The notes under the pieces are model-generated. The model was not told the origin of the DNA and searched no databases. It saw only the letters and a list, made by a program, of their open reading frames with translations. The translations under genes were made by a program, and so were the position numbers. Of a DNA stretch of 64,000 nucleotides, positions 1 through 49,868 are shown in pieces (the first letter of the stretch is position 1; every line of letters starts with the position of its first letter). Source of the stretch: a virus; the IMG/VR virus record IMGVR_UViG_3300005613_000025, positions 27,723 to 91,722 of that record. One strand, given 5' to 3'.

Positions 1-206
1 GTTGATTCGACCTGTTCATTGAATTGATCCATTTTTTGAACACTTGATATTGTGTAATGTATCACATAACCATTCTCATCAAGCATTTCATTTACCTTAT
101 ATGTGGCCTCACCTTCATTATCAGCATCGATCTCCATGGTGACATCTGCGCTCACAATATAATTCTGTTGTAAGTTGTTTTCTATCAGTTTAGTGAATTT
201 TCTCAT
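1..206 (-). CDS. Leader-tagged protein, 3' part outside window
   Basis: Read on the minus strand from ATG at 206, about 68 codons are visible and the frame stays open to base 1, so only the N-terminal part is seen. It begins MRKFTKLIENN, a variant of the leader tag shared by many proteins in this window. The rest is acidic, with no domain I recognise. It is divergent from the gene starting at 285, with AT-rich TATATAT stretches between them. Function unknown; packaging into the capsid is inferred only from the leader. Confidence 0.7.
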   Translation of the reverse strand, partial: MRKFTKLIENNLQQNYIVSADVTMEIDADNEGEATYKVNEMLDENGYVIHYTISSVQKMDQFNEQVES

Positions 207-250
207 AACATATATATTATGTTTCATTTTTACAAAATTCACATTTTAAA

Positions 251-264
251 AAATAATATATACA
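251..264 (+). promoter_or_regulatory. Late-type promoter box
   Basis: AATAATATATACA lies about 20 bases before the ATG at 285 and matches the TTTAATATATA box found before many leader-tagged genes. Function inferred from recurrence. Confidence 0.4.
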
Positions 265-284
265 TCAAAATAAATATCATTAAT

Positions 285-530
285 ATGCAATTCATTAAGA
301 AATTCACCAAATTCAAAGAGTCTGTTATGACTGAAGAGCCAGTTGTAAAACCAGACAGAACAAAAACAAAACCAAGTACAAGACCTCAAAGACCGACACC
401 CTTTCCGACCAAGAGGCCATCTGAACATGACCTACCAAGTCCAAAGGCAACTCAGGATGATGTTATCGATCGGTTCATACAACTTGCGATTGAGAACGAA
501 ATAGATATGAAAAAATATATTAAACAATAA
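285..530 (+). CDS. Small leader-tagged, Pro/Lys-rich protein
   Basis: 81 residues starting MQFIKKFTKFKES, a leader-tag match. I chose the ATG at 285 rather than the upstream one at 219 because the tag then sits at the N-terminus and the TATATA box falls upstream. After the tag comes a disordered, proline-, threonine- and lysine-rich stretch (TRPQRPTPFPTKRP) and a short helical C-terminus. The stop codon shares its last base with the ATG of the next gene at 530, so the two are co-translated. No enzymatic motif. Likely a virion or internal protein; function unknown. Confidence 0.75.
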   Translation: MQFIKKFTKFKESVMTEEPVVKPDRTKTKPSTRPQRPTPFPTKRPSEHDLPSPKATQDDVIDRFIQLAIENEIDMKKYIKQ

Positions 531-2110
531 TGAAGAATTATCAAGAATTCATAAAAGAAGCAGAACTTTCAAAGACAGAGGGTGTACCAGAGGATTGGAT
601 AAGAAAGACCGATGTGAAGGCGCAAAGAGAACTTGGTGTTAGAAAGGATGAGCCGACAGGGCGAGTGCCACACGGTCTACGACCACCACCTGGAATGCCA
701 CCACTACCTCCTGGAACGGAATTGCCTGGACCTCAAACAATGGCTCTTGTTCAGAAAATGAATAGAATGATGCAAAATGTCATGCCCATTTTCAGAAAAT
801 ATGATAAAGATGAGGTTTACCCGAAAATGACTGAAATTGCAATTGAAGCAGTAAAATCTGAATTTCCAAATGTATTGGATAATGTTACACTTGATGTCAA
901 AATGGTTGATATGTTCAAAGTTGCAGAGGAGATGCCAGATATCAAGGAGACTCCAAAGGATCCAAAATCTGAGGAGGAACAAAAAGAAAAAATAGAATCA
1001 GAGGAAGAATCTGAAAATGATGAGGGTTCTGATAATGATTCGAATGAAACCCCAATAGATGATTTTTTAAGATCACCTGAATTGAAAAAAGAGATCGACA
1101 AGGTAAAGTTGATGAATGCCATTTCACAGGGTGAAGGTTTGAACACTAAAATGATATTGCATAGTGATGTTGTAAAGGATGGTTTGAAAGAAATATTCGG
1201 TGATGATTGGCAGATCGTTTTCAATACATATGATGAGATGTCGAAGATACATCTTCAAATGAACTGGTCTCAGTCAATAGATTTCACTGCTAAGAACATG
1301 TCAGATAACTCAGAAGGAATTGCAGGAACAGTTCAAGTTGGTTGGGATGATAATAATGAAGAGGATGGTGATGAACAGACACAAAGTGCAGAGGATATAC
1401 TCAAATCAATTGAGCAAGGTGAATCTTTAAGTGATATGAGTGATGAGATAAGTGACCAACTTGAAGGTGGTAGAGGTAAAATAACCGTAAGAGCGGTTGA
1501 TCTTGCCATGTTGATACATGAAATTGTCAAGGGCATCTATCAATTGGTTGTTGTGAGTGGTATGCAAGTAATGAAAGATGAGAGAACTAAGATGGCTGCC
1601 AAGATGGCAACCGATAGTTTTGCCGATGAGGCAGAAGAGTTCCGATATGGTCCTTACATAGCTGCCGCATTGAGGGATGTTGTGAATAAATGTGACGGAT
1701 CAGATAAATATCCGAATGCAAGACTTTATGTTTTCGGGTTGATGGTTCAGATGGATGCACAGCCATTCTTGGATCTGATGCTTGAAATACTAAAGGAAAG
1801 TGATAGTGCAACTGAGATGGTGCAATCCCTTGTTGATCAGGTCAATGAGATGTTTGATGAATATCAACAAAAAGAAGTTGAATACGATCTTGATAGTGAC
1901 GGGGATGATGATCAGATGATTCCTTCACAATCGGATGAGAAAGAGTATAAGGATATGTCACAATCAGAATTGAAAGAGTTGATCGATATGTATCTTGATT
2001 CGGGAGACTTCGGCGAGATCGAGAAAATAAGACCTTACTTGAAAGAGTCGATCGACATGAGAATATATTTTGAAAGACAAGTGCAAAAAATAAAGGAATC
2101 AAAAAAATGA
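530..2110 (+). CDS. Large leader-tagged acidic protein
   Basis: 526 residues beginning MKNYQEFIKEAELSK, the closest match in the window to the T4 internal-protein leader MKTYQEFIAE. After a Pro-rich segment (residues about 45-65) the protein is strongly acidic, with an EEESENDEGSDNDS run near residue 165 and another Asp/Glu-rich region near the C-terminus. No catalytic motif is visible. It overlaps the 3' end of the preceding small gene by one base and the start of the next gene by four (ATGA). Acidic composition would fit a prohead-core or internal protein, but this is inference. Confidence 0.85.
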   Translation: MKNYQEFIKEAELSKTEGVPEDWIRKTDVKAQRELGVRKDEPTGRVPHGLRPPPGMPPLPPGTELPGPQTMALVQKMNRMMQNVMPIFRKYDKDEVYPKMTEIAIEAVKSEFPNVLDNVTLDVKMVDMFKVAEEMPDIKETPKDPKSEEEQKEKIESEEESENDEGSDNDSNETPIDDFLRSPELKKEIDKVKLMNAISQGEGLNTKMILHSDVVKDGLKEIFGDDWQIVFNTYDEMSKIHLQMNWSQSIDFTAKNMSDNSEGIAGTVQVGWDDNNEEDGDEQTQSAEDILKSIEQGESLSDMSDEISDQLEGGRGKITVRAVDLAMLIHEIVKGIYQLVVVSGMQVMKDERTKMAAKMATDSFADEAEEFRYGPYIAAALRDVVNKCDGSDKYPNARLYVFGLMVQMDAQPFLDLMLEILKESDSATEMVQSLVDQVNEMFDEYQQKEVEYDLDSDGDDDQMIPSQSDEKEYKDMSQSELKELIDMYLDSGDFGEIEKIRPYLKESIDMRIYFERQVQKIKESKK

Positions 2111-4104
2111 AGTTATTCAGATTCAATAATTTTAAGAGTGAAAAATTGATAAATGAGAATGTTGCTCAGGCAAAGAAATTGGCCAAAGATACATATCAAC
2201 TTAACAAGGCTATTGTAAGTTTATCAGATGGTAAGTATAAGACCGATAAAGAAGGTCTTGTGATACTCGATACTGATGGATATCCTGTCGAGCCAAAGGA
2301 TATGGACCAAGAGATAGTTCAAAAAGCGAAAGATTCTGTTTCAGAGATAGAGGTCACTGAGGAAGAACTAAAAGCAGCTGAGAGGTCATCTGCCATGGGT
2401 GTCATTCGTGATATAGTTGGTAAAAAACAAGGATACACATATATGTTCCTTTATTTCAAGTTGGTTGAACAGGTTCCTGATGATATGCTCAAAACAATAA
2501 TGTCAAGGTTGAAACAGAATGGTGATCTTTTGAATCGACTGAGAAGGAATATTTCAAATTACATTGATCCTGAGGTGAAAAACAATTCTGAGCAATTGGT
2601 TGATGATCTTGATGATATTGAAAGATATAGAAAGGCAAAGAAGTTCATCAATGAGTTCACATCAGTGCTCAAAGAAGATTACGCACAAGCGCCACCATAT
2701 TTGAAGGATAAACTTGTTGATGTTGCATCAGCATTTGATGAACTTGGAAAAGATGATTCTGGTAAAATAGATAAGGTAGCGCAAAAAGCATCACAGAAAA
2801 TATTCTTCGATAAGATAAAGCGATATAACACAGTGAGAGAGATGTTGGTTGCTGCTGAGGCTCATCTAAAAGCTGAGGCAAATTCAGGATACACTAAATA
2901 TCTGAAATCAATAAAAGAAGTGAATCGTAAATTCGGAAAATTCGGTGCGGATGCTTTATTTGTTGAAAATGGAATTCTTGTGATGGAGCTCAAATCCTAC
3001 CAGGCAACCAAGAAACTGTGTGGTAACACTGCTTGGTGTATTAAGGATCTATACTATTGGAACAATTATGTTGGTGGAGATACTGTTTATAACAGACAAT
3101 ATGTTATTGTGAATTTCAATTTACCCACATCTGATAGGAAGAGTATGATAGGTGTCACAATAGGACCTAATCAGTCAATATATGCTGCACACTATAAGAA
3201 TGACAATGAGGCCAAACCGTATCTGAAACAAGATCTCAAAGAATTCGAAGATGAGTATGGTCTGCCAGAAGGATCATTGTGGTATTACTTACAACCAATG
3301 GATGAAAACGATATCGAAATGAAAAAGAGAAGGATCAGTGCAAATAGAAATGTCGTGAAAAAAGGAATATCGCTTGACCAATTGAAACAATATGTTGTTG
3401 AAGATGGTGCTGATGTGAATGCTGAAAACGGAGCTCCACTGGACAATGCAGTTGAGGAAGATGATTATGACAAAGTGGAATTTTTGTTGAACAGTGAGGC
3501 AAGTCCGAATTTGAGGACTGAGTTTTCAGCAACTGTGAACAAAGTGAAATCGTTCAAAATATTGAAACTTATGTTGAACAATGGTGCAGAGTTGACGAAA
3601 CACGCATTCAGGCCGATGATGGATGACCGTGATGCTATCAAGTTCTGTCTTGAGAATGGAATGGATCCTGACCTTGGTAAAGGACTTCCTATCCGACAGG
3701 CCATCAAGCGAGGTGATTTGGATCTCATCAAGGTGTTCATTGAGAATGGTGCTACTTGGGGTATGGATGACGGAAGAGCTCAGCGAACAGCATTCGAAAA
3801 AGACCAGATCGGAGTTGCAGAATATCTTGTCGAGAACGGATTCAATAAGCGATTTGATATTGTGATGGATTGGATCGGCATGATAAAATCAATGCACTCT
3901 CCTGACAAAAGATACGAACTTCTTAGTATCTGTCAGGACTGGATAGACCGTAAAAGAGTTGAAATGCAACAAAGTGGATACCGTGACAAGGATTCTGATG
4001 GAAAAACCATTGTCATTGACTATGATCGACTTGTTGAAAAGTATGGAAATTACATGAATTATGTCATAAGTAATGATCCATCTATGTCGAAATTTAAAAA
4101 ATGA
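2107..4104 (+). CDS. Leader-tagged protein with C-terminal ankyrin repeats
   Basis: 665 residues. The N-terminus MKLFRFNNFKSEKLINENV is a leader tag with a second NEN motif. Residues about 270-400 hold a segment with KLCGNTAWCIKD and MIGVTIGP, a pattern I associate with conserved hypothetical proteins of large phages. From about residue 420 onward come ankyrin-like repeats (GADVNAENGAPLDNAVEEDD, then LLNSEASPN, MLNNGAELTKHA, ENGATWG, LVENGF). Ankyrin repeats bind proteins, so delivery of a host-binding effector is conceivable if the tag directs packaging. Overlaps the upstream gene by ATGA. Confidence 0.85.
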   Translation: MKLFRFNNFKSEKLINENVAQAKKLAKDTYQLNKAIVSLSDGKYKTDKEGLVILDTDGYPVEPKDMDQEIVQKAKDSVSEIEVTEEELKAAERSSAMGVIRDIVGKKQGYTYMFLYFKLVEQVPDDMLKTIMSRLKQNGDLLNRLRRNISNYIDPEVKNNSEQLVDDLDDIERYRKAKKFINEFTSVLKEDYAQAPPYLKDKLVDVASAFDELGKDDSGKIDKVAQKASQKIFFDKIKRYNTVREMLVAAEAHLKAEANSGYTKYLKSIKEVNRKFGKFGADALFVENGILVMELKSYQATKKLCGNTAWCIKDLYYWNNYVGGDTVYNRQYVIVNFNLPTSDRKSMIGVTIGPNQSIYAAHYKNDNEAKPYLKQDLKEFEDEYGLPEGSLWYYLQPMDENDIEMKKRRISANRNVVKKGISLDQLKQYVVEDGADVNAENGAPLDNAVEEDDYDKVEFLLNSEASPNLRTEFSATVNKVKSFKILKLMLNNGAELTKHAFRPMMDDRDAIKFCLENGMDPDLGKGLPIRQAIKRGDLDLIKVFIENGATWGMDDGRAQRTAFEKDQIGVAEYLVENGFNKRFDIVMDWIGMIKSMHSPDKRYELLSICQDWIDRKRVEMQQSGYRDKDSDGKTIVIDYDRLVEKYGNYMNYVISNDPSMSKFKK

Positions 4105-4859: not shown

Positions 4860-5148
4860 AGATGATATGCAAAATCTGCCTATGCAGGATCTCATTGAAA
4901 AATACAAATTGTATCCAGAAGTTGCTTTTGAAGAGGATGATCATGGAATTCTCATAAATGAAACATGGACATCCGATACGGACCAAGACATAATGCTTGA
5001 GAGATTCTATTATTTTGACATATATTTTGCTGAATTCCTTCCAACTGAAATTAAAAAAGAATGTTTCAGTGTGGTTTTGGATATTTATGTGGCTCGTGAG
5101 ATGTATGAGGAAGCTGCAATACTCAGGGATGAGATTCAGCTTTTATAG
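4852..5148 (+). CDS. Small UVR-motif protein
   Basis: 98 residues. The C-terminus REMYEEAAILRDEIQLL matches the UVR motif that UvrB uses to contact UvrC, also found in ClpC/McsA-type proteins. The rest is acidic and unassigned. It overlaps the resolvase gene upstream and converges on the small basic gene ending at 5136, so the two 3' ends overlap. A protein-contact role is inferred from the motif; no catalytic residues are visible. Confidence 0.75.
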   Translation: MFEDDMQNLPMQDLIEKYKLYPEVAFEEDDHGILINETWTSDTDQDIMLERFYYFDIYFAEFLPTEIKKECFSVVLDIYVAREMYEEAAILRDEIQLL

Positions 5149-5318
5149 CTACCACCTCTTTTCTTTCTCTTACAGAACTGTTTCTGTGAAAATCCCTTTG
5201 GATCATTACAGTTTATCGACTTTTTATACTTGACCGACCATCTTTTCTTCATTTTCTTTCGCGGTTGGTTGTACTCTTTCTTCTCGTTGAATTCGTAAAA
5301 GTCCTGTAAGTGTGTCAT
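5136..5318 (-). CDS. Leader-tagged basic peptide with NPKGFSQ motif
   Basis: 60 residues on the minus strand. MTHLQDFYEFNEKK is a leader tag; the remainder is very basic (QPRKKMKKRW) and ends with INCNDPKGFSQKQFC then KRKKRGG. A Cys-NPKGFSQ-Cys pattern recurs in small proteins of other T4-like phages as I remember them, function unknown. The start overlaps the stop of the upstream minus-strand gene (5315-5656) by four bases. A packaged basic, DNA-associated internal peptide is a reasonable inference. Confidence 0.75.
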   Translation of the reverse strand: MTHLQDFYEFNEKKEYNQPRKKMKKRWSVKYKKSINCNDPKGFSQKQFCKRKKRGGSYKS

Positions 5319-5656
5319 TTCTTTTCAACATTTATTATGATCCTGTTTCTATCTCTATCATAGTTTACTGATCCCATATCAAGACCTTTTAATTCAAGTT
5401 CAGATTTCAATTGCTCGATAACTTTCTTTTCTTCAAGTTCTTTCAATTCAAGTTCAAGGTCATTATTTGGCTTTTCGTCCAACTCTTTATCGAATATCTC
5501 TATTGTAAAGTTGTTCTCATCTTTTTTATTCATTTCGATATCGAGAAAAAGCCATTTATCAAATAATTCATCAAGTGTTGACTTTATATCATCTGCATTT
5601 ATGTTGAAATCATTATTGAGGTCAAAGAATTCATTTATAGGTTTCAAGTATTTCAT
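5315..5656 (-). CDS. Leader-tagged acidic protein
   Basis: 113 residues starting MKYLKPINEFFD, a leader tag. The body is rich in Asp, Glu and Asn with a Glu/Lys coiled-coil-like stretch (LELELKELEEKKVIEQLKSE) around residues 70-90. A TTTAATATATAAA late-type box lies 22 bases upstream. Translationally coupled to the basic gene after it (ATGA-type overlap). No known domain. Confidence 0.75.
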   Translation of the reverse strand: MKYLKPINEFFDLNNDFNINADDIKSTLDELFDKWLFLDIEMNKKDENNFTIEIFDKELDEKPNNDLELELKELEEKKVIEQLKSELELKGLDMGSVNYDRDRNRIIINVEKK

Positions 5657-9296: not shown

Positions 9297-10122
9297 AAAA
9301 GGATTTCTTAAACTTTTTGACATCAAGATACCAAGAGAGTGTGATTTTGACTATTATATAGATCAATTGTCAAATCTATCAAGATACTCCAATATCAAGG
9401 AACTGGTGGATATATATCACGAGGATGAGTTGAAATATGGTGACCTTTTCGAACTTAGAATGATTCTTTCGAATGAGATCATCAATGAATTGAAAAACAC
9501 ACATGCTTATAATGAAATGTTGATCGATCAACTATCAGGACTTCCTACGAATAAAAGTTATTCATATGACAATGGTATTTATGTTTCGATCGACCTTAGG
9601 TCTGCTAATTTCCAATCTCTGAAAAAGTATGACCAAAGAGGTGAAATTCCAACCAGTTATAGTGAGTTGTTAAGTAATTTCAATTCACCAGAGATATTCA
9701 AGCATTCAAAATATCTCAGACAGGTGATTTTTGGTAATCTGAATCCTAAAAGACAACAACTTGTTCAACGACATATAGTTCAAGAACTTGTAAGAAAATT
9801 GGATTCAGAGAATATTCAAGCAGTGAGAAATGATGAGATAATCATAAAGTTGGAAAGTTATGATGAATATGAATCCAATATAGAACCATATGTTGATTTT
9901 GAAAAGTATCGTGTGAAAATCTTTCAAAATTCAAACTATGATGGATTCAGGATCGAGCGTGAGATAGATAGTGATGGCCGACTTATTTCAAAGGATTTTT
10001 ATGGATTGAACAGGAACATGTTATTTTGGAAGATCAAGGAACTTATAACATTCGAAGAAATAGAAGATCGAGATCTTTATTTCATATCCGAAGGAAAACT
10101 TGCAAAATGGGTCATTGAGTGA
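9277..10122 (+). CDS. Conserved large-phage protein, unknown function
   Basis: 281 residues. The segment VSIDLRSANFQSLKKYDQRG with LRQVIFGNLNPKRQQ (residues about 105-180) resembles proteins I have seen annotated as hypothetical in other very large phages; I cannot name a function. It overlaps the Nudix gene by 20 bases and converges with the minus-strand gene ending at 10112. Confidence 0.75.
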   Translation: MNTLKDKKGFLKLFDIKIPRECDFDYYIDQLSNLSRYSNIKELVDIYHEDELKYGDLFELRMILSNEIINELKNTHAYNEMLIDQLSGLPTNKSYSYDNGIYVSIDLRSANFQSLKKYDQRGEIPTSYSELLSNFNSPEIFKHSKYLRQVIFGNLNPKRQQLVQRHIVQELVRKLDSENIQAVRNDEIIIKLESYDEYESNIEPYVDFEKYRVKIFQNSNYDGFRIEREIDSDGRLISKDFYGLNRNMLFWKIKELITFEEIEDRDLYFISEGKLAKWVIE

Positions 10123-10465
10123 CTTTTATTTGTAATTTTCCATCCATACTGCTGAAATTTTTATGCTGTTTTGTTTCTAAAAGATAATAGCTAACTTCGA
10201 ATCCAATATCATTTAACCTTTTAAAGAATACATCACATTCTTTGTATATCTCTTGCATTTCATTTTGATTTTCATAGATATTCATTGGAACATGTCCTTT
10301 TATTTCATATTTGAATTCCACCAAGTATAAACTCTGCTGTTTCCATCTATTGTGAAGTTTTGCAGTGAACTCATCGACCTCATCTATCAGTTCATATGCA
10401 GCATCATATATCTTGCTGATGTTATCATCTGTTTCATTTTCAAATATGTGTCTGATATGCTTCAT
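10112..10465 (-). CDS. Leader-tagged protein
   Basis: 117 residues beginning MKHIRHIFENE, a leader tag. The body alternates helix- and strand-forming segments (YLVEFKYEIKGHVPMNIYE) and has no recognised domain. Its 3' end overlaps the convergent gene by about ten bases. Confidence 0.7.
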   Translation of the reverse strand: MKHIRHIFENETDDNISKIYDAAYELIDEVDEFTAKLHNRWKQQSLYLVEFKYEIKGHVPMNIYENQNEMQEIYKECDVFFKRLNDIGFEVSYYLLETKQHKNFSSMDGKLQIKVTQ

Positions 10466-10520: not shown

Positions 10521-10736
10521 CTATTTTTTTCTGTAATGATCTATGATATCACGACCATTTACTAACTCATCTGGTGCATTCTTTATTTTTGAATCTTCGC
10601 AATTGTGAGATACCTTATATTTTCTTTTCACCTTTTCAATGATCTTCACTGGTGTTATCATATTATTGTACCAATATTCTATCAATACAACATCACCTTC
10701 ATTGAAATAACTTTTATATTCGAGTAAATGTCTCAT
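10521..10736 (-). CDS. Small leader-tagged protein, SH3-like beta segment
   Basis: 71 residues beginning MRHLLEYKSYFNEGD, a leader tag followed at once by VVLIEYWYNNMITPVKIIEK, which looks like a small beta-barrel of about 50 residues. It overlaps the end of the upstream nuclease-like gene by about 20 bases. Function unknown. Confidence 0.7.
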   Translation of the reverse strand: MRHLLEYKSYFNEGDVVLIEYWYNNMITPVKIIEKVKRKYKVSHNCEDSKIKNAPDELVNGRDIIDHYRKK

Positions 10737-11622
10737 AATTCTGTAAATTTTTAAGAACCTGTTCTCGGTTGTTCATTATATATCTGATGACATCAGGTCT
10801 TATTTTATTTCCCACATATCCGAAGACTTCGGTCGAAAATTTGGTTTCCTCTGGATTCTTGGCCAATTTTCTGAGTTCTTCTGTCGAAACTTTTGGAAGT
10901 ATCACTCTTGAAATATTATGAACTTGTTTATCAGTGTATGTGGAATTTATTGCAAGCTGATACTGTTTTATCCAACCACCTTTACCAGCTACCGTATTGC
11001 CTGTAAGTACGAAATTACCCATTTGTTCTTTTGTGAAATAATGCATTATTATCTCGGTCTCGTCAGAGTTGGGATGTGCGATCAACCAACCATTAACATC
11101 TTTTGATATGATATCCCATATTTCTTTTTTCAATTGATAATCATCTGAATGAAATACCTTACCAAGCGATTCATATCCACCTATTTCATCTTTGTAATCA
11201 GAAAGTATTGATTCATATGATCCTAATTGTACTCTTTCGTTTTCATCTCTGTAAAATTTGACTGAAATATTCTCACCATTAACGGTGATATCGTATTTAC
11301 TACCCCTTTTGGTCAATGTGCCACCATAAACACCACATAAGAACCCCTCAAAATTATGTCCTCTGATATCCTGGTGTTTTATAAGTGAGTCAAAATAATC
11401 TGCAAATCTCACCTTATCGTGTGTTTCTTGATAATCTAGATCTATATTTTCCCCAAGTTTAAAGAATTCACCCTTTGTTTTCATTATGATCCTTTTTATA
11501 ACTTGTGATGATTTTTCCTTAGGTAATGGAATCGAACCATATAAGTGTAATAATTTACCCATAAGATCGTCATACTCACTATCATGTGATTCAAACAATT
11601 GAAAACTCACTAAATTCTTCAT
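10714..11622 (-). CDS. Leader-tagged protein with possible PD-(D/E)XK nuclease core
   Basis: 302 residues beginning MKNLVSFQLFESHD, a leader tag. Residues about 90-125 read NFEGFLCGVYGG, then SKYDITVNGENISVKFY: a Glu in a helix, then D-x(n)-(I)xVK on two strands, the order of a PD-(D/E)XK nuclease active site. The rest is unassigned. If both readings are right this is a capsid-packaged nuclease, possibly acting on host DNA after injection. A late-type box lies seven bases upstream of the start. Nuclease call is tentative. Confidence 0.7.
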   Translation of the reverse strand: MKNLVSFQLFESHDSEYDDLMGKLLHLYGSIPLPKEKSSQVIKRIIMKTKGEFFKLGENIDLDYQETHDKVRFADYFDSLIKHQDIRGHNFEGFLCGVYGGTLTKRGSKYDITVNGENISVKFYRDENERVQLGSYESILSDYKDEIGGYESLGKVFHSDDYQLKKEIWDIISKDVNGWLIAHPNSDETEIIMHYFTKEQMGNFVLTGNTVAGKGGWIKQYQLAINSTYTDKQVHNISRVILPKVSTEELRKLAKNPEETKFSTEVFGYVGNKIRPDVIRYIMNNREQVLKNLQNYETFTRI

Positions 11623-36805: not shown

Positions 36806-36819
36806 CATATATATTAAAT
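36806..36819 (-). promoter_or_regulatory. Late-type promoter box
   Basis: Minus-strand ATTTAATATATATG directly before the tagged gene starting at 36802. Confidence 0.5.
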
Positions 36820-37342: not shown

Positions 37343-37725
37343 AACAACAACTCAGAAAACTAAAGCTTTATGAATTGGGTATTGCTGAATGGCCTTATGC
37401 GACCTCCTATGAAGAGATGAAAGAAGTGGTCGAGCGTAACTTGGAAGGATGTGTTATCAAGACATCCGATGAGTATCCAGGTTCTTATTTTTTCACGCAA
37501 GGAAAAAAGGTTATCATGGAACAAAATCAAAAAAATGATGTTCTATGGGTGAGGTATGATGGGTTTTGGTCCATTTTTTCAAACGACTTTTCCTTGGAAA
37601 GGACTGACATTCAAGCAATTATAAAGTTCCTGGTGGAACAACACCTCAAATCAAAGATAGGAACACCGGCTAGCACCTTCACTCATTTCAGTAAGCGGTG
37701 GAACAACACCTCAAATCAAAGATAG
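37339..37725 (+). CDS. Array-linked protein, copy 2
   Basis: 128 residues, paralogue of the protein at 28053 over residues 1-110 (LRKLKLYELGIAEWPYATSY, SIFSNDFSLERTDIQAIIKF). The frame enters the first repeat of array 2 as VEQHLKSKIGTP, but spacer 1 here is 29 bases, so the next repeat is read out of frame and the protein stops inside it. This loss of frame argues that the repeats are DNA or RNA elements rather than protein repeats. Family unknown. Confidence 0.75.
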   Translation: MKQQLRKLKLYELGIAEWPYATSYEEMKEVVERNLEGCVIKTSDEYPGSYFFTQGKKVIMEQNQKNDVLWVRYDGFWSIFSNDFSLERTDIQAIIKFLVEQHLKSKIGTPASTFTHFSKRWNNTSNQR

Positions 37726-39553: not shown

Positions 39554-40324
39554 TCAAGAATCAACAGAAGCTCCTTTTGACATATAATCTTCATAATCGA
39601 ACATTACATGCTTGACCATATTCTTATCAATTCTTCCTTTATTGGTCTGTTTATTAAAATATGCAACTACATGCATCTCATCATATTGTGGCATGAAAAT
39701 GGTCATGTATATGTGTGTGATATCTGGATCATCAGCCTCTGGACTTACTTCGAGATATTTATTGAAGAATTCTTTATCCATTCCTTTTTCGATATAAAAC
39801 TCTCTCAATTCTTCTATGAATTTTTTCAATTCGGTCGGATTATTTGAAAATTCCTGATAAAATTTAGCAACATCAGGATTGTTATGTTTTCTTTTTATGT
39901 GAAGTAACAACTTTAAAACGCCAGACTTACCATATTTGACCTGTGTTCCAGGATATCTACTGAGTTCAACATTTTGGAATTCATAATCAGTACCATCAAG
40001 GAATATTTTCAATCGATCATCAAAAAGTTGAATGTCAGAATTTATTTCCGATATGAATTTTTTCAGTTCATCGAATGAAAAATTCTCTTTATAATCATAG
40101 GTCTTTGAGAAAAAAATCTTTGAATGAACATATTCCCCGTCAATATAATTCCAATTTGTAGATATCGAGAAAAGTTCATCTATGAGTTCATCAAAATAAT
40201 CTTCAATGAGTTCTTTTTTTATAGCCTCCTTTTTGACCAGATCTTGATACTCTTGGGTATCTTCAAATCTGGCAGCGTATTGCCATTTTTTATTCTCAGT
40301 GATGAATCTTATATAACTTTTCAT
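39554..40324 (-). CDS. Leader-tagged protein
   Basis: 256 residues beginning MKSYIRFITENKKWQYAARF, a leader tag. The body is helical with a beta-rich end (ITHIYMTIFMPQYDEMHVVAYF). Its stop abuts that of the upstream membrane protein. A late-type box lies five bases before the start. Function unknown. Confidence 0.75.
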   Translation of the reverse strand: MKSYIRFITENKKWQYAARFEDTQEYQDLVKKEAIKKELIEDYFDELIDELFSISTNWNYIDGEYVHSKIFFSKTYDYKENFSFDELKKFISEINSDIQLFDDRLKIFLDGTDYEFQNVELSRYPGTQVKYGKSGVLKLLLHIKRKHNNPDVAKFYQEFSNNPTELKKFIEELREFYIEKGMDKEFFNKYLEVSPEADDPDITHIYMTIFMPQYDEMHVVAYFNKQTNKGRIDKNMVKHVMFDYEDYMSKGASVDS

Positions 40325-40341: not shown

Positions 40342-41121
40342 CTAAACAAAGATTTTTTTCAGATCGATCTTGGATGTTATTTCGATCACAGATTCATCTT
40401 TTTTCAAAGAATATTCACTCATATGTTTGAATATCGATATTATATCTTTGATACGATTCTTTTCGTCCTTACTGATGTCATTGGTGAAAACTTCTAAGAG
40501 ATTGTCTATTTCTGAATAGGAGAGTTTATTCTTATGTCCAAGAAAATAAACGAAATCATAGTTCATTGACTCGTATTTTTTTACCATGTTCTGATCTGAC
40601 ATACTCAGTAGAAATTCTGTGAGTGAGTTCTCAGCACCTATTGATGGCACAGAATACCGAAATCCATCTATTATGAATTCTTTTGTTGTTTCATTATAAT
40701 ATTTCATAATGTTATTGTCCAATGGCATGTAATTGAAATTTTCAGGACCGAATTCAACTTCACATCGTTGCCCATATTCATCTTTATACTCGATCATTAT
40801 TGGTCTTTTATTCGTGAATTTTGCAATTTCCAAGAAAATAAAAACAATATCAGCACTTTTAATGTCATCAAATGTGTAACCGTCACTCAATATGGCGCAT
40901 TTTTCAACAACCCTTTTCAATTTTTCGATGACCATTGATACTGAATCCAATGTAAAATCATATTCGTATTCAATGATATCTTCCATATCGGCCTTTCTTA
41001 TTGATATCTCAAAATCGTCTTTGTAAAAAACTCCTCTGGTCGGGAGATTTCGAGTGTTTATCACTTTTCTTTTATTTATTACCTGTAATAGTATATTTGA
41101 GAGATTCATAAAGTAATTCAT
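40342..41121 (-). CDS. T4 gp26-like baseplate protein, copy 1
   Basis: 259 residues. INTRNLPTRGVFYKDDFEIS then IRKADMEDIIEYE resembles the N-terminal motif of T4 gp26-type baseplate hub proteins ('LP..G.FY...', membrane-proximal hub assembly). A second member is at 51354. The start overlaps the end of the upstream tagged gene by about 50 bases; a later ATG four codons in would reduce this a little. Baseplate role inferred by family resemblance. Confidence 0.7.
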   Translation of the reverse strand: MNYFMNLSNILLQVINKRKVINTRNLPTRGVFYKDDFEISIRKADMEDIIEYEYDFTLDSVSMVIEKLKRVVEKCAILSDGYTFDDIKSADIVFIFLEIAKFTNKRPIMIEYKDEYGQRCEVEFGPENFNYMPLDNNIMKYYNETTKEFIIDGFRYSVPSIGAENSLTEFLLSMSDQNMVKKYESMNYDFVYFLGHKNKLSYSEIDNLLEVFTNDISKDEKNRIKDIISIFKHMSEYSLKKDESVIEITSKIDLKKIFV

Positions 41122-41833
41122 TGTTTTTTATCGTATCATATATCTTATCATATATATCTTTAACATCATCATTCATGTCACATTTTACTGAAACACGACC
41201 ATCATTGAAACTTATATCAATATCAATTGTACCATCTGAGAACATGTGCAGTTCATTTGGAAACGACCATTCCAGTGATGCAATATCAACATGCTCATAC
41301 TCTATATTACTTATCAATTTGGTGAATTCAAGATCAGTCATTCGGTAACGACTCACGACATCATTTACAATTTGAATTTTATCACTGAATATATCATTCA
41401 TTATTTTTTCAGTATGGTCCATTATGACCTCGAATATCGAATCTAGCAATCTGAGCTTTAAAAATGTATCCTCATCTGTTATCATTATGTACTGGTCATT
41501 TGATAGTTGTTGCATGAACTCTGCAACTTTATAAACACCATCAGCTTGTTTATCTATTATTATCTGAATGTCATCCAGGTCACTTTGGTTCAGAAATTCA
41601 GTTTTTTCATAATCACGGTGATCCATTTTGAAAATGATACCATTCGGTGATTTACCATCCTCATATTGTGTGTAAATGTCCCAATATAGATTCACCTTTT
41701 CTGTTTCGGGAATTGCAAAATCCAACCTCACTGAGAGAAAGTCTTCAACTATTTCACTTAATTGATCCAAGTAATTGAACATCGACTCGGAAATAAACTC
41801 TGAATATTTTAATAATTTCTTGTTAGGGGCCAT
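41072..41833 (-). CDS. Leader-tagged protein
   Basis: 253 residues. MAPNKKLLKYSEFISESMF carries the leader tag a few residues in; the other tagged proteins start nearer to it, so the N-terminal MAPN may be an extension. Alternating helices and strands, no recognised domain. Divergent from the methyltransferase at 41855 with TATATATAAAA between them. Confidence 0.72.
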   Translation of the reverse strand: MAPNKKLLKYSEFISESMFNYLDQLSEIVEDFLSVRLDFAIPETEKVNLYWDIYTQYEDGKSPNGIIFKMDHRDYEKTEFLNQSDLDDIQIIIDKQADGVYKVAEFMQQLSNDQYIMITDEDTFLKLRLLDSIFEVIMDHTEKIMNDIFSDKIQIVNDVVSRYRMTDLEFTKLISNIEYEHVDIASLEWSFPNELHMFSDGTIDIDISFNDGRVSVKCDMNDDVKDIYDKIYDTIKNNELLYESLKYTITGNK

Positions 41834-44817: not shown

Positions 44818-46296
44818 ATGCCAAACATAATAGAAGGATTTTTTCTTGGAAATGCAACACCGATCGACACAAGAATAGTTGCACAAAATGCAACAGAGAG
44901 ACTGAATATTCAATATAAATACGATGGTCTGAAAGTATTTCAGACCGATACAAGAGAATCTTGGGTGTGGAATCAATCGATACCTGATTGGGAATTGGAA
45001 GGATCAGGAACATTGACCGGTTTGGGTGATCCAAATTATGTTGCAAAATGGGCATCAACAGGATCACTTACAGCATCCAACATATATATAGATCCTTCAA
45101 ATAACAATATCGGTGTGGGAACAACCTCTCCACAATCAATTCTACAATTGAACTCATCAACAACTCAGCCTTTCAATATCAATAATTCATCGGATGGAAT
45201 TGGTATATCTTATAACTGGCGGTATCAATCAGGAAATAATGTTCACAATGCTGCTCAAGGATCCGTAAAGGTTGAGATGATGTCACAAGGATCAAGTTTT
45301 CTTGTATCAACAAGACAGAGTGGTGATCCAGGATCAGATTTTCATGATCTTTTTTGGATCAACCGAGAATCAGGTAGTGAGGGATGGAATATTTTGAAAT
45401 CACCACAGAGTGGTAACTTCATAAATGGTAAAACAATATTTGATAATCAATTCTTCCAAACAGGAGATCCAGTTATTACATATTCAAAACCACAACATGT
45501 TTATGTTGATCAATCATTCAGAACCAATTCTGCCGAACACGAGTCTGTTACGAAATTGACCTTTGAGGTCAGTGGTTTTATTAACATAATAACAAGACAA
45601 TTTGGTGCAACAAGACTTAACAATACACTACCGGTTGCTACAACACAACAAGGCGTTTCGACAACATATACACTTAATGCAACAGATAGGAATATAATAC
45701 TTGACTTAAAAACTGCAACACCGATGATAATAAACTTGGGTGATATCAATACAAATAATACAGATAATGTTGGTCGTGTGTTGGATGTTTCTGTTCATAG
45801 CTCAAATTCAAGTAATGGTCAAGTAAGTTTTACAGCAACACAGGATATAGTTGATATCAACGGAAATTCAACTGACCTTACTTTGAGACCAGGGGAATCT
45901 ACAAAATTGATAGCAAGTGTTCAATCCGGTGTTGTGAAATGGCAAATATTACACAGAGTTAATCGAAAACCATATAAATCATATGTTGCAAAATTATCAC
46001 AATCTGGAACTTCTGCACCAACTGCTACTGTAATGGAGAATACATTTACAACGAATCCGACATTTACGAGAATACCTACCGGTAGATACAATTTAGAAAT
46101 AACAGGTGCTTTCCCTTTGGACAAAACATTTGTAATGATAAAATCGATCAGTGGTGGTCTAACAACCAATGTTTACACATTCGAAGCTTTAAGACAGGAT
46201 GTTGATAAAATACTTATACTTTCAAGAAATGAATCAAACTTACTTGCCGATAGTTTATTAAATGATACTGAAATAGAAATAAGGGTATATTATTGA
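44818..46296 (+). CDS. Tail fibre or structural adhesin-like protein
   Basis: 492 residues. GDPNYVAKWASTGSLTASNI then YIDPSNNNIGVGTTSPQS is the repeat-like motif of phage and Bacteroidetes fibre or adhesin proteins that end in an intramolecular chaperone; here the C-terminus is instead a compact beta-rich domain. Ser, Thr and Asn are abundant. Likely host-recognition or tail-associated. Ends seven bases inside the convergent gene. Confidence 0.8.
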   Translation: MPNIIEGFFLGNATPIDTRIVAQNATERLNIQYKYDGLKVFQTDTRESWVWNQSIPDWELEGSGTLTGLGDPNYVAKWASTGSLTASNIYIDPSNNNIGVGTTSPQSILQLNSSTTQPFNINNSSDGIGISYNWRYQSGNNVHNAAQGSVKVEMMSQGSSFLVSTRQSGDPGSDFHDLFWINRESGSEGWNILKSPQSGNFINGKTIFDNQFFQTGDPVITYSKPQHVYVDQSFRTNSAEHESVTKLTFEVSGFINIITRQFGATRLNNTLPVATTQQGVSTTYTLNATDRNIILDLKTATPMIINLGDINTNNTDNVGRVLDVSVHSSNSSNGQVSFTATQDIVDINGNSTDLTLRPGESTKLIASVQSGVVKWQILHRVNRKPYKSYVAKLSQSGTSAPTATVMENTFTTNPTFTRIPTGRYNLEITGAFPLDKTFVMIKSISGGLTTNVYTFEALRQDVDKILILSRNESNLLADSLLNDTEIEIRVYY

Positions 46297-46967
46297 TCCA
46301 ATTTCTCGAACCACCAATTGAAATAGATGAAATTCTCATTCCTCAGAACATATTGATCGCCTTCATATGAAATATGTATCCTATCATTATATGATTTCAG
46401 AACTTCAACTTCAGCACCTTGTTTTATTTTCATCATTTTACCATCCAATGAAGAATAACAAATAACATGGTCTCTCATCAATTTGAACTTACCTGTCTGT
46501 GGTTTTAAAAATGTCTGTATCGTCTTTATTAAGAATCCTTTCAACCTTTTGACCCATATATGTGTCTGAATAAGAGAAGTGTCAGTGAACACCTCTGAAA
46601 TAACTTGTGCATTACCCAATATATCTTTTATCACACCCCAATATTCTTCTTCATCAATATTGAAACTTATATAAACATCATATGTGAAATTTGCATTTCT
46701 TGTTATTCTGATTATCTTAAGAGATTGAACATTCTGGTCATCAAGTGATAATCTTGATTTCAGATTCTTGTATGCAGCAGATCCACCAAGTGATTTATGT
46801 ATGTCTCCGATACGGGAAAGAGCCTGCCTTATCATATCCTGATGTTTATCAAATGCATCGATCGAAAGTTCAGGGTTCTGAACCCACATGGCAGGCTGGA
46901 CAGCATCAGGATTGAACCGTTGCAAGTTGAATTCAGTGAATTCTCTGATGAGTTTTGGTCTTTTCAT
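46290..46967 (-). CDS. Leader-tag-like protein next to structural genes
   Basis: 225 residues beginning MKRPKLIREFTEFNLQRFNP, a tag-like start with an extended linker. The C-terminal quarter (GAEVEVLKSYNDRIHISYEG) looks like a small beta-barrel. A TTTTTAATATATATT box precedes the start. Possibly a virion protein of the same tagged set. No domain recognised. Confidence 0.7.
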   Translation of the reverse strand: MKRPKLIREFTEFNLQRFNPDAVQPAMWVQNPELSIDAFDKHQDMIRQALSRIGDIHKSLGGSAAYKNLKSRLSLDDQNVQSLKIIRITRNANFTYDVYISFNIDEEEYWGVIKDILGNAQVISEVFTDTSLIQTHIWVKRLKGFLIKTIQTFLKPQTGKFKLMRDHVICYSSLDGKMMKIKQGAEVEVLKSYNDRIHISYEGDQYVLRNENFIYFNWWFEKLDQ

Positions 46968-46999: not shown

Positions 47000-47302
47000 A
47001 TGAGAATTCTTAAATTCAACGAACAAGTGGAAAACATGTCATCAGAGAGAATAGATGAAATAACCGAAGAGTTAACTTTGATGTCAGAATATATCAATGA
47101 GAAAAAAGAATTCTTTGATCAGGTATTGAACGAACTTGATCAGTTCAAAAGTGACAATTCGAACAAGATAGACCAGATCGATGAAACTATCAAGAACATG
47201 CAATTGATAAACAGTACATTTGATGACCTATCTGATAAGTTGGATAATTGCATGGTTGAATTGAAAAGTTACAAAGACGAAGGAAGGCAATATTTGTACT
47301 AA
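47000..47302 (+). CDS. Small leader-tagged coiled-coil protein
   Basis: 100 residues beginning MRILKFNEQVENM, a leader tag, followed by an almost uninterrupted helix with coiled-coil spacing. It precedes the DNA polymerase gene by 24 bases on the same strand. Function unknown. Confidence 0.72.
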   Translation: MRILKFNEQVENMSSERIDEITEELTLMSEYINEKKEFFDQVLNELDQFKSDNSNKIDQIDETIKNMQLINSTFDDLSDKLDNCMVELKSYKDEGRQYLY

Positions 47303-47326
47303 ACATTTGACATTCAATTCATTATA

Positions 47327-48841
47327 ATGTCTATGTTAATAGACACAGAATACTTAAGCCGCTCACAGAAACTGGTATGTTCATATATTGACTCTGCCGG
47401 TGAGATCAAATTGAAATACTTTGATTTCACAACACCTATGAAATATGTGACATGTGATGATACAGACCCACAGAAACACCCAACATACAGATCTTGGGAT
47501 GATAAGGCAGTGAAGCAGGTCATGACAAATAGACCTGATAGATACGCCATATATGAATTCTTGGATCAACAGGATGAAAAAACAAAAGATGAGATATTCG
47601 GATTTCACACACCGAACATATATTTTGTCGATATCGAGACCGAGATAGATCCTGCAACTGGTGCATACTCACAACCTGATGATCCGAATGGTAGGATCAT
47701 ATCTGTTTCGGTTGTTTATGATGAAAAGATAATTCTGATGGGATTGAAAGATATGCCAGATGACATGCAAAAAAGAATTGAAAAGAATACGAATGAATAT
47801 TTCAATGATGGTGTTGAATATAAGCTCAAATATGTCAAATTCCAAGATGAATTTGATATGTTGTGGACCTTCTTCAACAAAATGACCGTAAAGATGCCAC
47901 TCATCACTGGTTGGAACTTCCTCAACTTCGACTGGAGATATCTTGTGAACAGAGCAAGAAAGCTCACAAAGACGGTCAATAATCAAACAATGATAATTGA
48001 TCCTAAGATAAGTTCACATACAAGAAGACTCAGAACATTGTTCGGAACAGATTATGAGGTTCCTATGCATAGGATGGTATTTGATTACATGCAACTTTAT
48101 GAAGTTGCAGATACATCTATCAAAGTGAAAGAATCATCCTCACTTGACTTTGTTTCTTCGAAATTGGTCGGTGTTGAAAAGATCAAATATAATGGGTCAC
48201 TTCAAAAATTATATGAAGATGATTTTGAAACTTTCATGTATTATAACGCAGTTGACTCGGCATTGGTTCAAAAGATACACCAATCAAAGAATTACATATC
48301 GATCATATTTGCAATTTCATCATTGTCACAGATAAAAGTAACAGATGTTGTATCTCAGATGAACAATGCACTTGCATCACTTGCCATCACCGAAGGTGTT
48401 CTCAGAGGCAGATTCAGAGAAATGCAGAATGTGGTTCTTTTCAAAGATGAGAATTTCTCATCACAATCTGCGAAAGGAATTGCAGGTGGATATGTGATGG
48501 ATCCAGTTCAAGGTATGAACCTTTGGGTTGCCTGTTATGACTTTGCAAGTCTTTATCCCACGACCATGGATCAATTCTTCATTGCACCTGAAACATTCGT
48601 TGGTGTTCAGGGAGAAGATAAAGCATATTGTTTCAACGGTAATAAGAGAACAAAGATAGATAAGACGATACATGTGGTCTGCAACAATGGATGTGTTTTC
48701 AAAAAAGAACTTACTCCAACTCTTAAGATGATCAAAGATGTTTATGCCGACAGAAAAAAGAACAAAAAGATAATGATGCAGAAAAAAGAAGAACTTAACA
48801 AAGTTCTTCACGAAATCCAAAAATTGGAAGCCACTATTTGA
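47327..48841 (+). CDS. Family B DNA polymerase, N-terminal half only
   Basis: 504 residues against about 900 for T4 gp43. The 3'-5' exonuclease motif IYFVDIETE (Asp 102, Glu 104) and TGWNFLNFDWRYL are present, as is polymerase motif A, CYDFASLYPTT near residue 404. The protein then ends in a Lys/Glu helix (KKEELNKVLHEIQKLEATI) before the NSxYG and DTDS motifs, neither of which is found anywhere in this window. The position matches a site where gp43 is split into two polypeptides in some T4-like phages. The other half is presumably elsewhere in the genome. Confidence 0.9.
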   Translation: MSMLIDTEYLSRSQKLVCSYIDSAGEIKLKYFDFTTPMKYVTCDDTDPQKHPTYRSWDDKAVKQVMTNRPDRYAIYEFLDQQDEKTKDEIFGFHTPNIYFVDIETEIDPATGAYSQPDDPNGRIISVSVVYDEKIILMGLKDMPDDMQKRIEKNTNEYFNDGVEYKLKYVKFQDEFDMLWTFFNKMTVKMPLITGWNFLNFDWRYLVNRARKLTKTVNNQTMIIDPKISSHTRRLRTLFGTDYEVPMHRMVFDYMQLYEVADTSIKVKESSSLDFVSSKLVGVEKIKYNGSLQKLYEDDFETFMYYNAVDSALVQKIHQSKNYISIIFAISSLSQIKVTDVVSQMNNALASLAITEGVLRGRFREMQNVVLFKDENFSSQSAKGIAGGYVMDPVQGMNLWVACYDFASLYPTTMDQFFIAPETFVGVQGEDKAYCFNGNKRTKIDKTIHVVCNNGCVFKKELTPTLKMIKDVYADRKKNKKIMMQKKEELNKVLHEIQKLEATI

Positions 48842-48866
48842 ATGTTTTTGAAAAAAATTGAAATAT

Positions 48867-49868
48867 TCAATTGAACATTTTCTTGTAAAGATCAGGAGCA
48901 GTTTCAATATCAAGAACTTTGGCCTTTATTGTTTCAATGTTGTTGTTTATTGCCTTTTGTAATCTGTGATGACCATCAAGTATCATTCCCCAACTACCAT
49001 CTTGTTTCTTAACTATTATTATCGGATAGTCTAAAATGGCTCTTTGAACACGGTCTAATGTTGCCTTATCTTTCTTGTCTTTATGAATTGACAGATCAGC
49101 TATTTCACTGACAGGTATCTCGGTGATATCAACATCTTTAAGATGATCTTCAACATCATGTATTGTTATTGTTTCTGACCTGCCATCAATATCCATTGTC
49201 CAACTAGTCGATCGGTAATTGTCATTTTCATTTTTCAATATCTTATTGAGTGTGTATGGTGATGGAAAATATCCGATCTCTTTAGTTGTTTTTTTCACAT
49301 TATTATAAAGATTCGTATAAAACCTATCATAACTTTTGAATATGTGATTTCTGTCACTATCAACATAATCGATCACTCTTCTGGATTCGATGAAATCAAG
49401 TATATCTCTCACATTGAATCTAGAACAGGCACCTCCGATAACTGCATTTTTCGGAAATACACCGAATCCTTTCTCACCTTCTGAAAATTCAACATCTTTG
49501 AAAATGTTCAATTCTGGATTCAATTTCAATAGTTCATTGAATATGATATCTGTTATCTCCTCATCATTTATGAAAATACCTGATAGATTCTCAATATGTT
49601 CTTCATCCATATTGAACGGCATTTTCCATTTATTTGACAATCCAGACACACCTGATGTTTTTTCAAGCTCTTCTGCCGGAAAGTGTGTTTTAAAATAAAT
49701 ATCCTCCTGTGGATCATCTTTAGAATTCCTTCTCAGATTGTCAAGTAATGCAATGACCCTATCAAGATCGCCTTGTTTCATTGATTGTTCCAGCTTTTCA
49801 ATGTCATCGTGAAATTTGTGTGGAATTATTTCTTTTTGAAACTTTTCGAATAACTTTAAATATCTCAT
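48867..49868 (-). CDS. Leader-tagged protein with ParB-like C-terminal domain
   Basis: 333 residues beginning MRYLKLFEKFQKEIIP, a leader tag. From about residue 250, VSEIADLSIHKDKKDK..., YPIIIVKKQDGSWGMILDGH then HRLQKAINNN match the ParB/sulfiredoxin-like fold with its DGHHR nucleotide-binding motif. Such domains occur in ParB, nucleases and modifying enzymes. If capsid-packaged, it would enter the host with the DNA. The start is followed upstream by the TnpB-like gene. Confidence 0.8.
   Translation of the reverse strand: MRYLKLFEKFQKEIIPHKFHDDIEKLEQSMKQGDLDRVIALLDNLRRNSKDDPQEDIYFKTHFPAEELEKTSGVSGLSNKWKMPFNMDEEHIENLSGIFINDEEITDIIFNELLKLNPELNIFKDVEFSEGEKGFGVFPKNAVIGGACSRFNVRDILDFIESRRVIDYVDSDRNHIFKSYDRFYTNLYNNVKKTTKEIGYFPSPYTLNKILKNENDNYRSTSWTMDIDGRSETITIHDVEDHLKDVDITEIPVSEIADLSIHKDKKDKATLDRVQRAILDYPIIIVKKQDGSWGMILDGHHRLQKAINNNIETIKAKVLDIETAPDLYKKMFN

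Follow-up and report, generated by a model that had tools for sequence, protein, structure and literature searches.

Why should about two dozen proteins of one phage, with unrelated bodies, begin with the same short N-terminal leader of 10-19 residues? We addressed this question in a 64,000-nt window (the whole stretch of DNA analysed), part of a 91.7-kb record from a Mahaphage-type huge phage. The T4-like (gp23-like) major capsid protein is 67% identical over the full alignment to LR756502 and LR745206, relatives that come from 642- and 635-kb phages. The closest capsid proteins are those of 634-735 kb Bacteroidetes phages, which places the record in the Mahaphage lineage; a DNA-level search of part of the window against a phage collection gave zero matches. 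A first-pass annotation had read the leaders on about two dozen proteins as likely T4-type capsid-targeting tags. All seven starts that it quoted are present (genes at 33034, 530, 23333, 14323, 34278, 39554 and 48867), and its count holds: the window has 22-24 genes with a leader, none of them beyond 49.9 kb, and several more lie in the 27.7 kb upstream in the same record. The leader reads M-K-x-[LIFY]-x-x-[FY] and then has a hydrophobic-x-Glu site; examples are MKHLKRFNES and MKYIKEYEEFLLEA. The genes are listed below, with arrows at the predicted cuts; W01 and W02 are complete relatives.

285..530, + strand: tagged small protein beginning MQFIKKFTKFKES, first of a three-gene tagged operon; motif of the TTAATATA type 31 nt upstream; mechanical ORF opens earlier, at 219
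530..2110, + strand: tagged 526-aa protein, MKNYQEFIKE↓A, nearest to T4 IpII/IpIII (MKTYQEFIAE↓A); counterparts begin MKNFSKFLEE (W01) and MKNFKDFMNEE (W02); no relatives found in IMG/VR
2107..4104, + strand: tagged 665-aa protein with weak ankyrin repeats, leader MKLFRFNNFKSEKLINE↓N; site kept in three phages (LINE↓N, LTE↓N, LNE↓N)
5136..5318, - strand: tagged, MTHLQDFYEFNE
5315..5656, - strand: tagged, MKYLKPINEFF; promoter-like motif at -33
10112..10465, - strand: tagged with a weak profile score, MKHIRHIFE↓N
10521..10736, - strand: tagged 71-aa protein, MRHLLEYKSYFNE↓G; tag kept in W01 and W02
10714..11622, - strand: tagged, MKNLVSFQLFE↓S; promoter-like motif at -16
12833..13267, - strand: tagged, MKDDKTIKKYESF; start 7 codons within the longest ORF
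14323..15048, - strand: tagged, MIHKFSQFNE↓S (start quoted as MIHKFSQFNESS); promoter-like motif at -33
16784..17188, - strand: tagged acidic protein, MKHLTKFEKF; promoter-like motif at -33
17258..18490, + strand: tagged 410-aa protein, MKKIFDYYQFINE↓S; large phage-specific family with a tentative GNAT-like core
23333..23980, + strand: tagged, MKSFKQFNE↓S
28053..28538, + strand: possible tag, MKKELRKLKLFE↓L; N-terminus resembles that of the gene at 37339
32150..33031, + strand: tagged, MKKLKYFGEFVNE↓N, second site QSLNE↓GL; promoter-like motif upstream
33034..33279, + strand: tagged, top-scoring leader, MKHLKRFNE↓S
34278..34559, - strand: tagged, MKHLTTFESFENPTNE↓GFLGF (start MKHLTTFESFE); promoter-like motif at -32
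34611..35012, - strand: possible tag missed by the refined profile, MRFYRFDIFE↓T; body with a weak DUF6576 match
35684..36808, - strand: tagged, MFMRVKRYNQFIIE↓SKITKSESLNE↓GLK
37339..37725, + strand: possible tag, MKQQLRKLKLYE↓L; N-terminus resembles that of the gene at 28053
39554..40324, - strand: T4-like leader missed by the refined profile, MKSYIRFITE↓N (start quoted as MKSYIRFITENK); promoter-like motif at -15
41072..41833, - strand: tagged, MAPNKKLLKYSEFISE↓S
46290..46967, - strand: tagged, MKRPKLIREFTEFN; W01 and W02 orthologues begin alike (LILEFTEFN); promoter-like motif at -15
48867..49868, - strand: tagged, MRYLKLFE↓KFQK (start quoted as MRYLKLFEKFQK); ParB-like 'DGHHRLQKA' motif seen by eye in the C-terminal part; one partial relative in IMG/VR

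The three-gene operon keeps its order and leaders in W01 (280620, 280913, 282386) and W02 (252558, 251044, 249113). Nearly all of the window's cargo was left without a family by Pfam. For the 17258..18490 protein, a PDB fold search gave only weak GNAT-like matches, none with E <0.001, and its viral matches are mainly uncharacterised phage proteins.

The N-terminal profile scan suggested in the first-pass annotation was run, and the leader is enriched both in the fragment and in complete relatives. The seed profile was built from this fragment only, W01 and W02 being outside its construction. At a score of at least 8 it selects 117/988 N-termini (11.8%) in W01 and 102/956 (10.7%) in W02, whereas internal-Met controls give 0.94% and 0.97% (p 2e-47 and 5e-39) and shuffled N-termini 1.5% and 1.3%. 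With a refined profile, 188/988 proteins are tagged in W01 and 157/956 in W02. At a refined score of at least 7, this record has 20/137 tagged N-termini vs 9/559 internal-Met starts (Fisher p 5e-9), in part a circular result, as the seeds were taken from this same record. Records outside the refinement carry the tag at 12% (W04 and W05) and 5-8% (W03), and around 80 related capsid genes it occurs on 171/1676 proteins at 59/80 loci, against 0.38% of internal Met. Some leaders are missed by automatic calls, because gene 219-530 probably begins at 285. Roughly one-sixth of the proteins in the fragment and its largest-genome relatives bear one short address label, predicted to be removable. Expectation-maximization (EM) free motif discovery on the fragment's N-termini was overfitted and discarded, and a translation-start artefact is ruled out by the shuffled, internal-Met and other-phage controls.

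Strong leaders of every class have L/I at position 4 (~95%) and F/Y at position 7 (>80%), residues that the profile itself favours. A Phi-x-E site lies within 22 residues in 295/332 tagged proteins vs 702/1716 (41%) untagged ones, and in tagged proteins it is followed by Ser in 35% (P1'). About 11% of strongly tagged proteins have no Phi-x-E in the 22 residues searched, and NE-S enrichment is absent from W03 leaders (KYLKLYENF). Predicted capsid protein sites read [I/L/M]xE or LYE then N (16/16 distinct sites), and predicted protease N-terminal sites read Phi-x-E↓N/S in nearly all of 50. The leader ends in the same kind of site as the conserved INE↓N that closes the N-terminal extension of the capsid protein, and in one W01 protein (W01_80294) a leader ending ...SFNE↓ runs, at this same point, straight into a capsid N-arm and is colinear there with the capsid sequence ...TINE↓NAYVNATTAGMGGV. 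The AlphaFold model of the 17258..18490 protein has a mean pLDDT of 84, with residues 1-14 below 50; the leader, its sole long low-confidence stretch, is predicted to be disordered.

The tagged genes also have in common a promoter-like motif, TTAATATA, which occurs upstream of portal and tail genes and precedes other virion structural genes. Among genes with free upstream DNA, the motif is found at 61-75% of tagged and 16-20% of untagged genes. Some genes that bear it are not obviously virion genes (methyltransferases, a DnaB-like helicase), and when genes having the motif were compared by PHROG with those lacking it, the outcome was mixed and only suggestive. The prohead protease gene, which the first-pass annotation had proposed to look for, was found and is T4-like (phrog_207 head maturation protease, 5e-29). 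Its S77 Pfam match (PF03420) is below the curated cut-off in this record and lineage; PF03420 is present in 12/12 comparison records. By these profile matches, a gp21-type prohead protease is encoded.

We consider it highly probable that the leader is a greatly expanded capsid-targeting sequence that works like that of T4 and is cut by the prohead protease. Late in infection, tagged proteins would be produced alongside head proteins. The amphipathic leader, with its hydrophobic residue 4 and aromatic residue 7, would bind the scaffold core, and the core-bound protein would become built into the prohead. The T4-type protease, whose gene adjoins that of the major capsid protein, would cut behind the leader's terminal Glu, at [FILVY]-x-E↓S/N/A/G; the capsid protein and the protease itself would be freed at sites of this same kind. 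Cargo released in this way would stay in the head until ejection, when it would pass with the DNA into the next cell. The device would apply to roughly 150-190 proteins per genome in these huge, uncultivated Bacteroidetes phages. Packaging in the head appears well supported, if indirectly, and the label's most likely function is to load proteins into the virus head, so that they could accompany the DNA into a new host cell.

Could the leader instead be the last recognisable part of one fast-duplicating gene family? There is a real paralogous family of the ILLDLxDDGF type (DxGF), with 64/73 members tagged, which accounts for 42/188 tagged proteins in W01 and 22/157 in W02, and tagged genes do cluster (85 adjacent pairs vs 36 expected). 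However, 146 and 135 tagged proteins fall outside this family, and tagged bodies include LRR, GluRS, NFACT-R, SET, RNA ligase, VWA, DHH and ankyrin proteins, with known domains starting past the leader (GluRS at residue 27, NFACT-R at 23, SET at 34, DHH at 30). The original claim of no other similarity is mostly borne out (178 BLAST clusters in W01, 147 in W02), except in the one paralogous family, and a single gene family was rejected as an explanation for all but DxGF proteins. The tag is retained in 43/55 reciprocal-best orthologues at a body identity of ~45%, vs 17/369 tagged partners of untagged genes. Shared ancestry alone, very improbable in our view, is already contradicted by orthologues with the same body with and without the leader: in a clean gain/loss pair, MKHLRKFEEL-DYSTYMSAADKL is matched by M-NYSTYISAAEKL, which has no leader upstream, and a member of another family (L260) begins directly at the body. 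The chance is slighter still that the leader is a 5' coding element for translation, an A-rich start in AT-rich Bacteroidetes phages whose peptide has no role. Leaders are Lys-rich and their codons are slightly biased to AAA and TTA, but shuffled N-termini score far lower, the peptide MKHLK is encoded by nine DNA versions, and the aromatic and Glu positions are constrained. The leader is also absent in other Bacteroidetes phages (MA9V-2 3/263, PTm1 1/109, refined score at least 7). MA9V-2, a cultivated Chryseobacterium phage of the gp23 lineage, has one gene beginning MKTFTYFINE↓A, at 166687, a short way upstream from the protease gene.

A sorting signal for a replication compartment, membrane or assembly site in the infected cell, rather than the head, would equally be expected to be N-terminal, modular and conserved, and tagged enzymes (GluRS, RNA ligase, DHH, SET) could act during infection. 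We nevertheless think it unlikely, as it leaves unexplained the protease-like Phi-x-E end and its match to the predicted capsid and protease sites, the chimera of leader and capsid N-arm, and the promoter-like motif common with structural genes. Less easily set aside, though still doubtful, is the view that the packaged, tagged proteins serve as structural or core components, most of them not being ejected as effectors. Small basic proteins with a capsid N-arm after the leader or Phi-x-E site look structural, as does the tagged operon kept in three phages, and the T4 core proteins gp22 and gp67 are likewise cut (PMC9026906). Against this, only 20-42% of tagged genes have a match in the closest relatives, vs 47-49% of untagged genes, which fits accessory cargo.

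If the leader is a capsid-targeting sequence, what might it deliver? An 'injected arsenal', as the first-pass annotation put it, is what we infer for the tagged proteins. It seems reasonably probable that the largest known phages deliver ~150-190 different cleavable cargo proteins per genome with their DNA, an injected proteome far larger than that of T4 and possibly one reason for very large heads and genomes. On that reading, the delivered set includes RNA ligases, a tRNA synthetase, a SET-domain protein, NFACT-R proteins and families of >40 copies. The leader would provide a sequence rule marking which of the mostly unknown Mahaphage genes act as virion cargo, and therefore probably act in the first minutes of infection. 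About one-sixth of unannotated Mahaphage genes would become a testable set, in which new counter-defence proteins acting on the immunity of Bacteroidetes could be sought. The rule also hints at a purpose for the larger head volume and additional genes of the largest phages, and the leaders may double as loading tags for very large capsids.

Among known systems, encapsulin cargo-loading peptides are likewise short terminal peptides that put unrelated cargo into an HK97-fold shell, but they are C-terminal, uncleaved and independent of a phage protease. The Mahaphages (634-735 kb) and Lak phages of Al-Shayeb et al. 2020 (PMC7162821), in whose genomes the tag was measured, have the same capsid lineage and Bacteroidetes hosts; the main text of that paper contains no word beginning 'inject'. 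Lak phage is without this leader and has recurrent leaders of its own, KxLYESIMKSxSKxxKKKLNE and xKxLxESLFDD. phiKZ-type phages (SPN3US, 201phi2-1) resemble the present case in their huge head, many different cargo proteins with N-terminal propeptides, and a gp21-like protease that cuts after Glu, as predicted here (PMC9026906, PMC7411985). Their cuts fall at S/A-x-E, their capsid families differ from the Mahaphage type, and the portions of these papers drawn on here describe no common short leader.

T4 is the closest parallel. In its capsid-targeting sequence, hydrophobic residue 4, aromatic residue 7 and the Phi-x-E end are functional, and positions 4 and 7 are the targeting determinants in IPIII (PMC9026906). 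IPI-III and Alt, cut by gp21, have an N-terminal leader of ~10-19 residues with these same features and a Glu end at 9-13, alongside a T4-type protease, a gp23-like capsid protein and unrelated bodies, as here. Of the proposal of T4-type targeting, the capsid-targeting half gains indirect support from the protease, capsid site, promoter-like motif and modularity, whereas the sequence is T4-like in a minority of leaders; the likeness appears to lie mostly in architecture. A profile with MKNYQEFIKE among its seeds ranks T4 IpII/IpIII high and one without it does not, and the idea that the fragment's profile finds T4 internal proteins unaided was rejected once this T4-like seed was left out. The consensus here is MK[HY][LI]Kx[FY]NES or MK[YH][LI]KxYxxFES, in phage-specific dialects. 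Packaging here is predicted, and some cargo forms paralogous families. The tag count does far exceed that of T4, as first proposed: 5/269 T4 proteins, IpII and IpIII among them, match a generic pattern, and the refined profile selects 157-188 here. Only a handful of T4 proteins are known to be tagged, compared with ~150-190 profile-predicted ones per genome in these phages.

The first-pass annotation had read a leader shared by unrelated proteins (a short M-K-x-[LIFY]-x-x-[FY] peptide, then hydrophobic-x-Glu, here Phi-x-E) as a likely capsid-targeting tag cut by a prohead protease, whose gene was to be found. The window spans positions 27723-91722 of an IMG/VR virus record of 91,722 bases. A candidate lies in the 27.7 kb of the record left of the window (analysed as L002 and L003), followed by the capsid gene:

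L002:1573-3768, 731 aa, containing a head maturation protease domain (phrog_207, E 5e-29)
L002:3809-5614, 601-aa T4-type major capsid protein (phrog_138)

Several homing endonuclease genes occur, some flanking head genes (window 52552-54201 and 55874-57409; L002:366-1505 and L002:5777-7759). Six tRNA genes (Ala, Gly, Glu, Tyr, Glu, Met) occupy window 58941-63060 on the minus strand, a stretch with no clear leader-bearing genes. By tblastn, the nearest capsid protein matches come from uncultured phages of 642, 635, 636 and 735 kb, with alignment identities of 67, 67, 55 and 54%, respectively. As these genome lengths match those of the largest Mahaphages (634, 636, 642 and 735 kb; Bacteroidetes are the predicted hosts; PMC7162821), the record is, by its capsid sequence, a fragment of a huge phage. 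Genome-wide questions were therefore put to the complete relatives LR756502 (W01) and LR745206 (W02), analysed in full; W03, W04, W05 and the Lak phage were analysed in part.

All seven leader starts quoted initially are present in the window. A seed profile of 17 leaders, all from the record and with the start Met given zero score, was scanned over W01 and W02 as held-out genomes, and the proposed scan of N-termini revealed enrichment in both. At scores of at least 8 it found 117 of 988 N-termini in W01, versus 0.94% of internal-Met stretches (Fisher p 2e-47), and 102 of 956 in W02, versus 0.97% (Fisher p 5e-39); shuffled N-termini gave 1.5% and 1.3%. A refined profile, trained on W01, W02 and the record (score of at least 7), tags 188 proteins in W01 (19%), 157 in W02 (16%) and 20/137 in the record. 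Outside the refinement set it tags 30/253 in W04, 25/211 in W05, 13/237 and 9/115 in W03, and 6/241 in the Lak phage. Near 80 related capsid genes, 171 of 1676 proteins are tagged, in 59 of the loci, versus 0.38% of internal Met. The count is far above that of T4 (2/269), as had been suggested, and other T4-type phages give 3/263 (MA9V-2), 1/109 (PTm1) and 1/107 (RaK2). Gene calls were mechanical and the longest ORF sometimes begins too early, so some leaders were missed; window gene 219-530, for example, should start at 285, and its leader was overlooked.

Two leader shapes, MK[HY][LI]K-x-[FY]-N-E-S (83 strong cases) and MK[YH][LI]K-x-[YF]-x-x-F-x-E/S (213), seem equivalent, since orthologues swap them on one body (MKYINSYKLFEES in W01_44127, MRHLKRFNES in W02_133378). 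Phi-x-E falls inside the first 22 residues of 295/332 tagged versus 702/1716 untagged proteins, with Ser immediately after it in 35% versus 8%. Dialects are phage-specific (KYILEYEEFLLEA in W05; IKKFKLFEA and IKTFDEFINES in W04). MKHLK has nine DNA versions in W01, one dominant, and codon use near the genome average, so the conserved unit seems to be the peptide rather than the DNA; recent copying is an additional contributor to this likeness.

The tag is conserved yet modular. Reciprocal-best W02 partners are tagged for 43/55 tagged W01 genes versus 17/369 untagged ones (p 6e-34); orthologous bodies share ~45% identity, and leaders 53%, versus 32% for random tagged pairs. Of 77 families with at least five members, 58 are wholly untagged and 5 are at least 60% tagged. 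One protein carries the tag in six phages (MKHLRKFEELDYSTYMSAADKL) and cleanly lacks it in four others (MNYSTYISAAEKL or MKYSTYIAAAERL), in whose upstream frame the leader was sought and not found. Most relatives of window gene 17258-18490 bear the leader (e.g. MLKKYTDFLFES, MKLHKYDQFLTES), and one (L260) starts directly at the body, MFYSPRLTN. AlphaFold (35 sequences) models this body confidently (mean pLDDT 84), and the score drops below 50 over residues 1-14, which coincide exactly with the leader.

Known domains begin behind the leader, at residue 23 in an NFACT-R protein, 34 in SET, 30 in DHH and 27 in the glutamyl-tRNA synthetase of the 735-kb phage. In the latter (LR756501, L105:13267-14895), a 26-residue leader-like extension, MKKMELKNLTEFEQFRLLMKES..., precedes the catalytic domain. 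In many relatives the NFACT-R RNA-binding-domain protein is encoded 3' of the capsid gene (L056:2508-2897, for instance), and 30/37 family members score as tagged. The tag also occurs on a T4-type RNA ligase, a VWA/metallopeptidase and a 2H phosphoesterase-exonuclease. Paralogues sharing the motif IxDILLDLxDDGF (46 in W01, 27 in W02; 64/73 tagged) form a family that sits mostly in islands (W01 L013-L015, about 10-42 kb; also W02); no member was detected in the record. Tagged genes cluster, with 85 adjacent pairs versus 36 expected in W01 and 59 versus 26 in W02.

The 85 capsid proteins examined from the lineage give 16 distinct local sequences, and in every one Glu closes the N-terminal extension and Asn follows, as INE|N (bar, presumed cut) in 12; nearly all of 50 prohead proteases have Phi-x-E|N/S near their own N-terminus. 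These cut sites are predictions, based on conservation and on the T4 gp21 rule, cleavage after L/I-x-E, as outlined in PMC9026906. In the 81-aa W01_80294, leader MKHLKNYKSFNE precedes DATANASTAGMGGVSPAQPGVLPG; the capsid protein reads TINE NAYVNATTAGMGGVVSPQPGTLPG at the matching point, and the leader occupies the exact place of the capsid extension. In its counterpart W02_93266 and three other small proteins (W01_542908, W02_554784, W03b 73552), all basic like W01_80294, the capsid N-arm segment (GMGxV...GSGD) likewise follows a leader or a Phi-x-E site.

For genes preceded by free DNA, the 45 nt before the start contain TTAATATA or TAATATATA in 35/57 tagged versus 51/308 untagged genes in W01 (p 1.5e-11), 37/54 versus 46/286 in W02 (p 3e-14) and 6/8 versus 8/41 in the record (p 0.004); shuffled upstream controls gave 2-7%. 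The T4 late promoter is TATAAATA, and by analogy we read the motif as a late promoter. Its strict form also precedes untagged W01 genes for the portal (222545), a baseplate-like protein (105387) and collagen-like fibres (125251, 557500, 564022), all but the portal being named by eye, and several proteins of this set have leader-like starts that the profile missed. PHROG tables of motif-bearing versus motif-free genes point in the same direction, but are mixed.

In T4, according to PMC9026906, internal proteins carry propeptides of 10-19 residues that bind the prohead core, with residues 4 and 7 serving targeting and 8 and 10 processing. Every part of this scheme visible in sequence is also present in these huge phages, which makes it probable that the leader is an expanded capsid-targeting system. 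It would bind the prohead core and then be cut after Glu, as in T4 internal proteins; passage of the cargo into the host would be a natural consequence, one step further removed. Part of the tagged set likely has a structural or core role. We consider it improbable that the leader instead sorts proteins to a place in the infected cell, such as a compartment. For capsid targeting the load is physically reasonable, as one copy of each tagged W01 protein totals ~3.8 MDa, little compared with the protein bolus of >40 MDa described for the 240-kb phage SPN3US (PMC7411985).

The likeness to T4 is architectural, in that a profile built without a T4-like seed fails to rank T4 IpII/IpIII high. Within T4, 61.1 (18966-19130; MKTFKEFIKED) and the gp2 DNA end protector (gene 2, 76061-76885; MAIFQIINES) also start like the capsid-targeting leader. 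The Lak phage (MK250024; L119-L128, L285-L301) is without this leader, yet has its own recurrent N-termini, KxLYESIMKSxSKxxKKKLNE (LNE end), weakly enriched in a held-out part of the genome, and xKxLxESLFDD (ESLFDD end), which are possibly an independent leader dialect.
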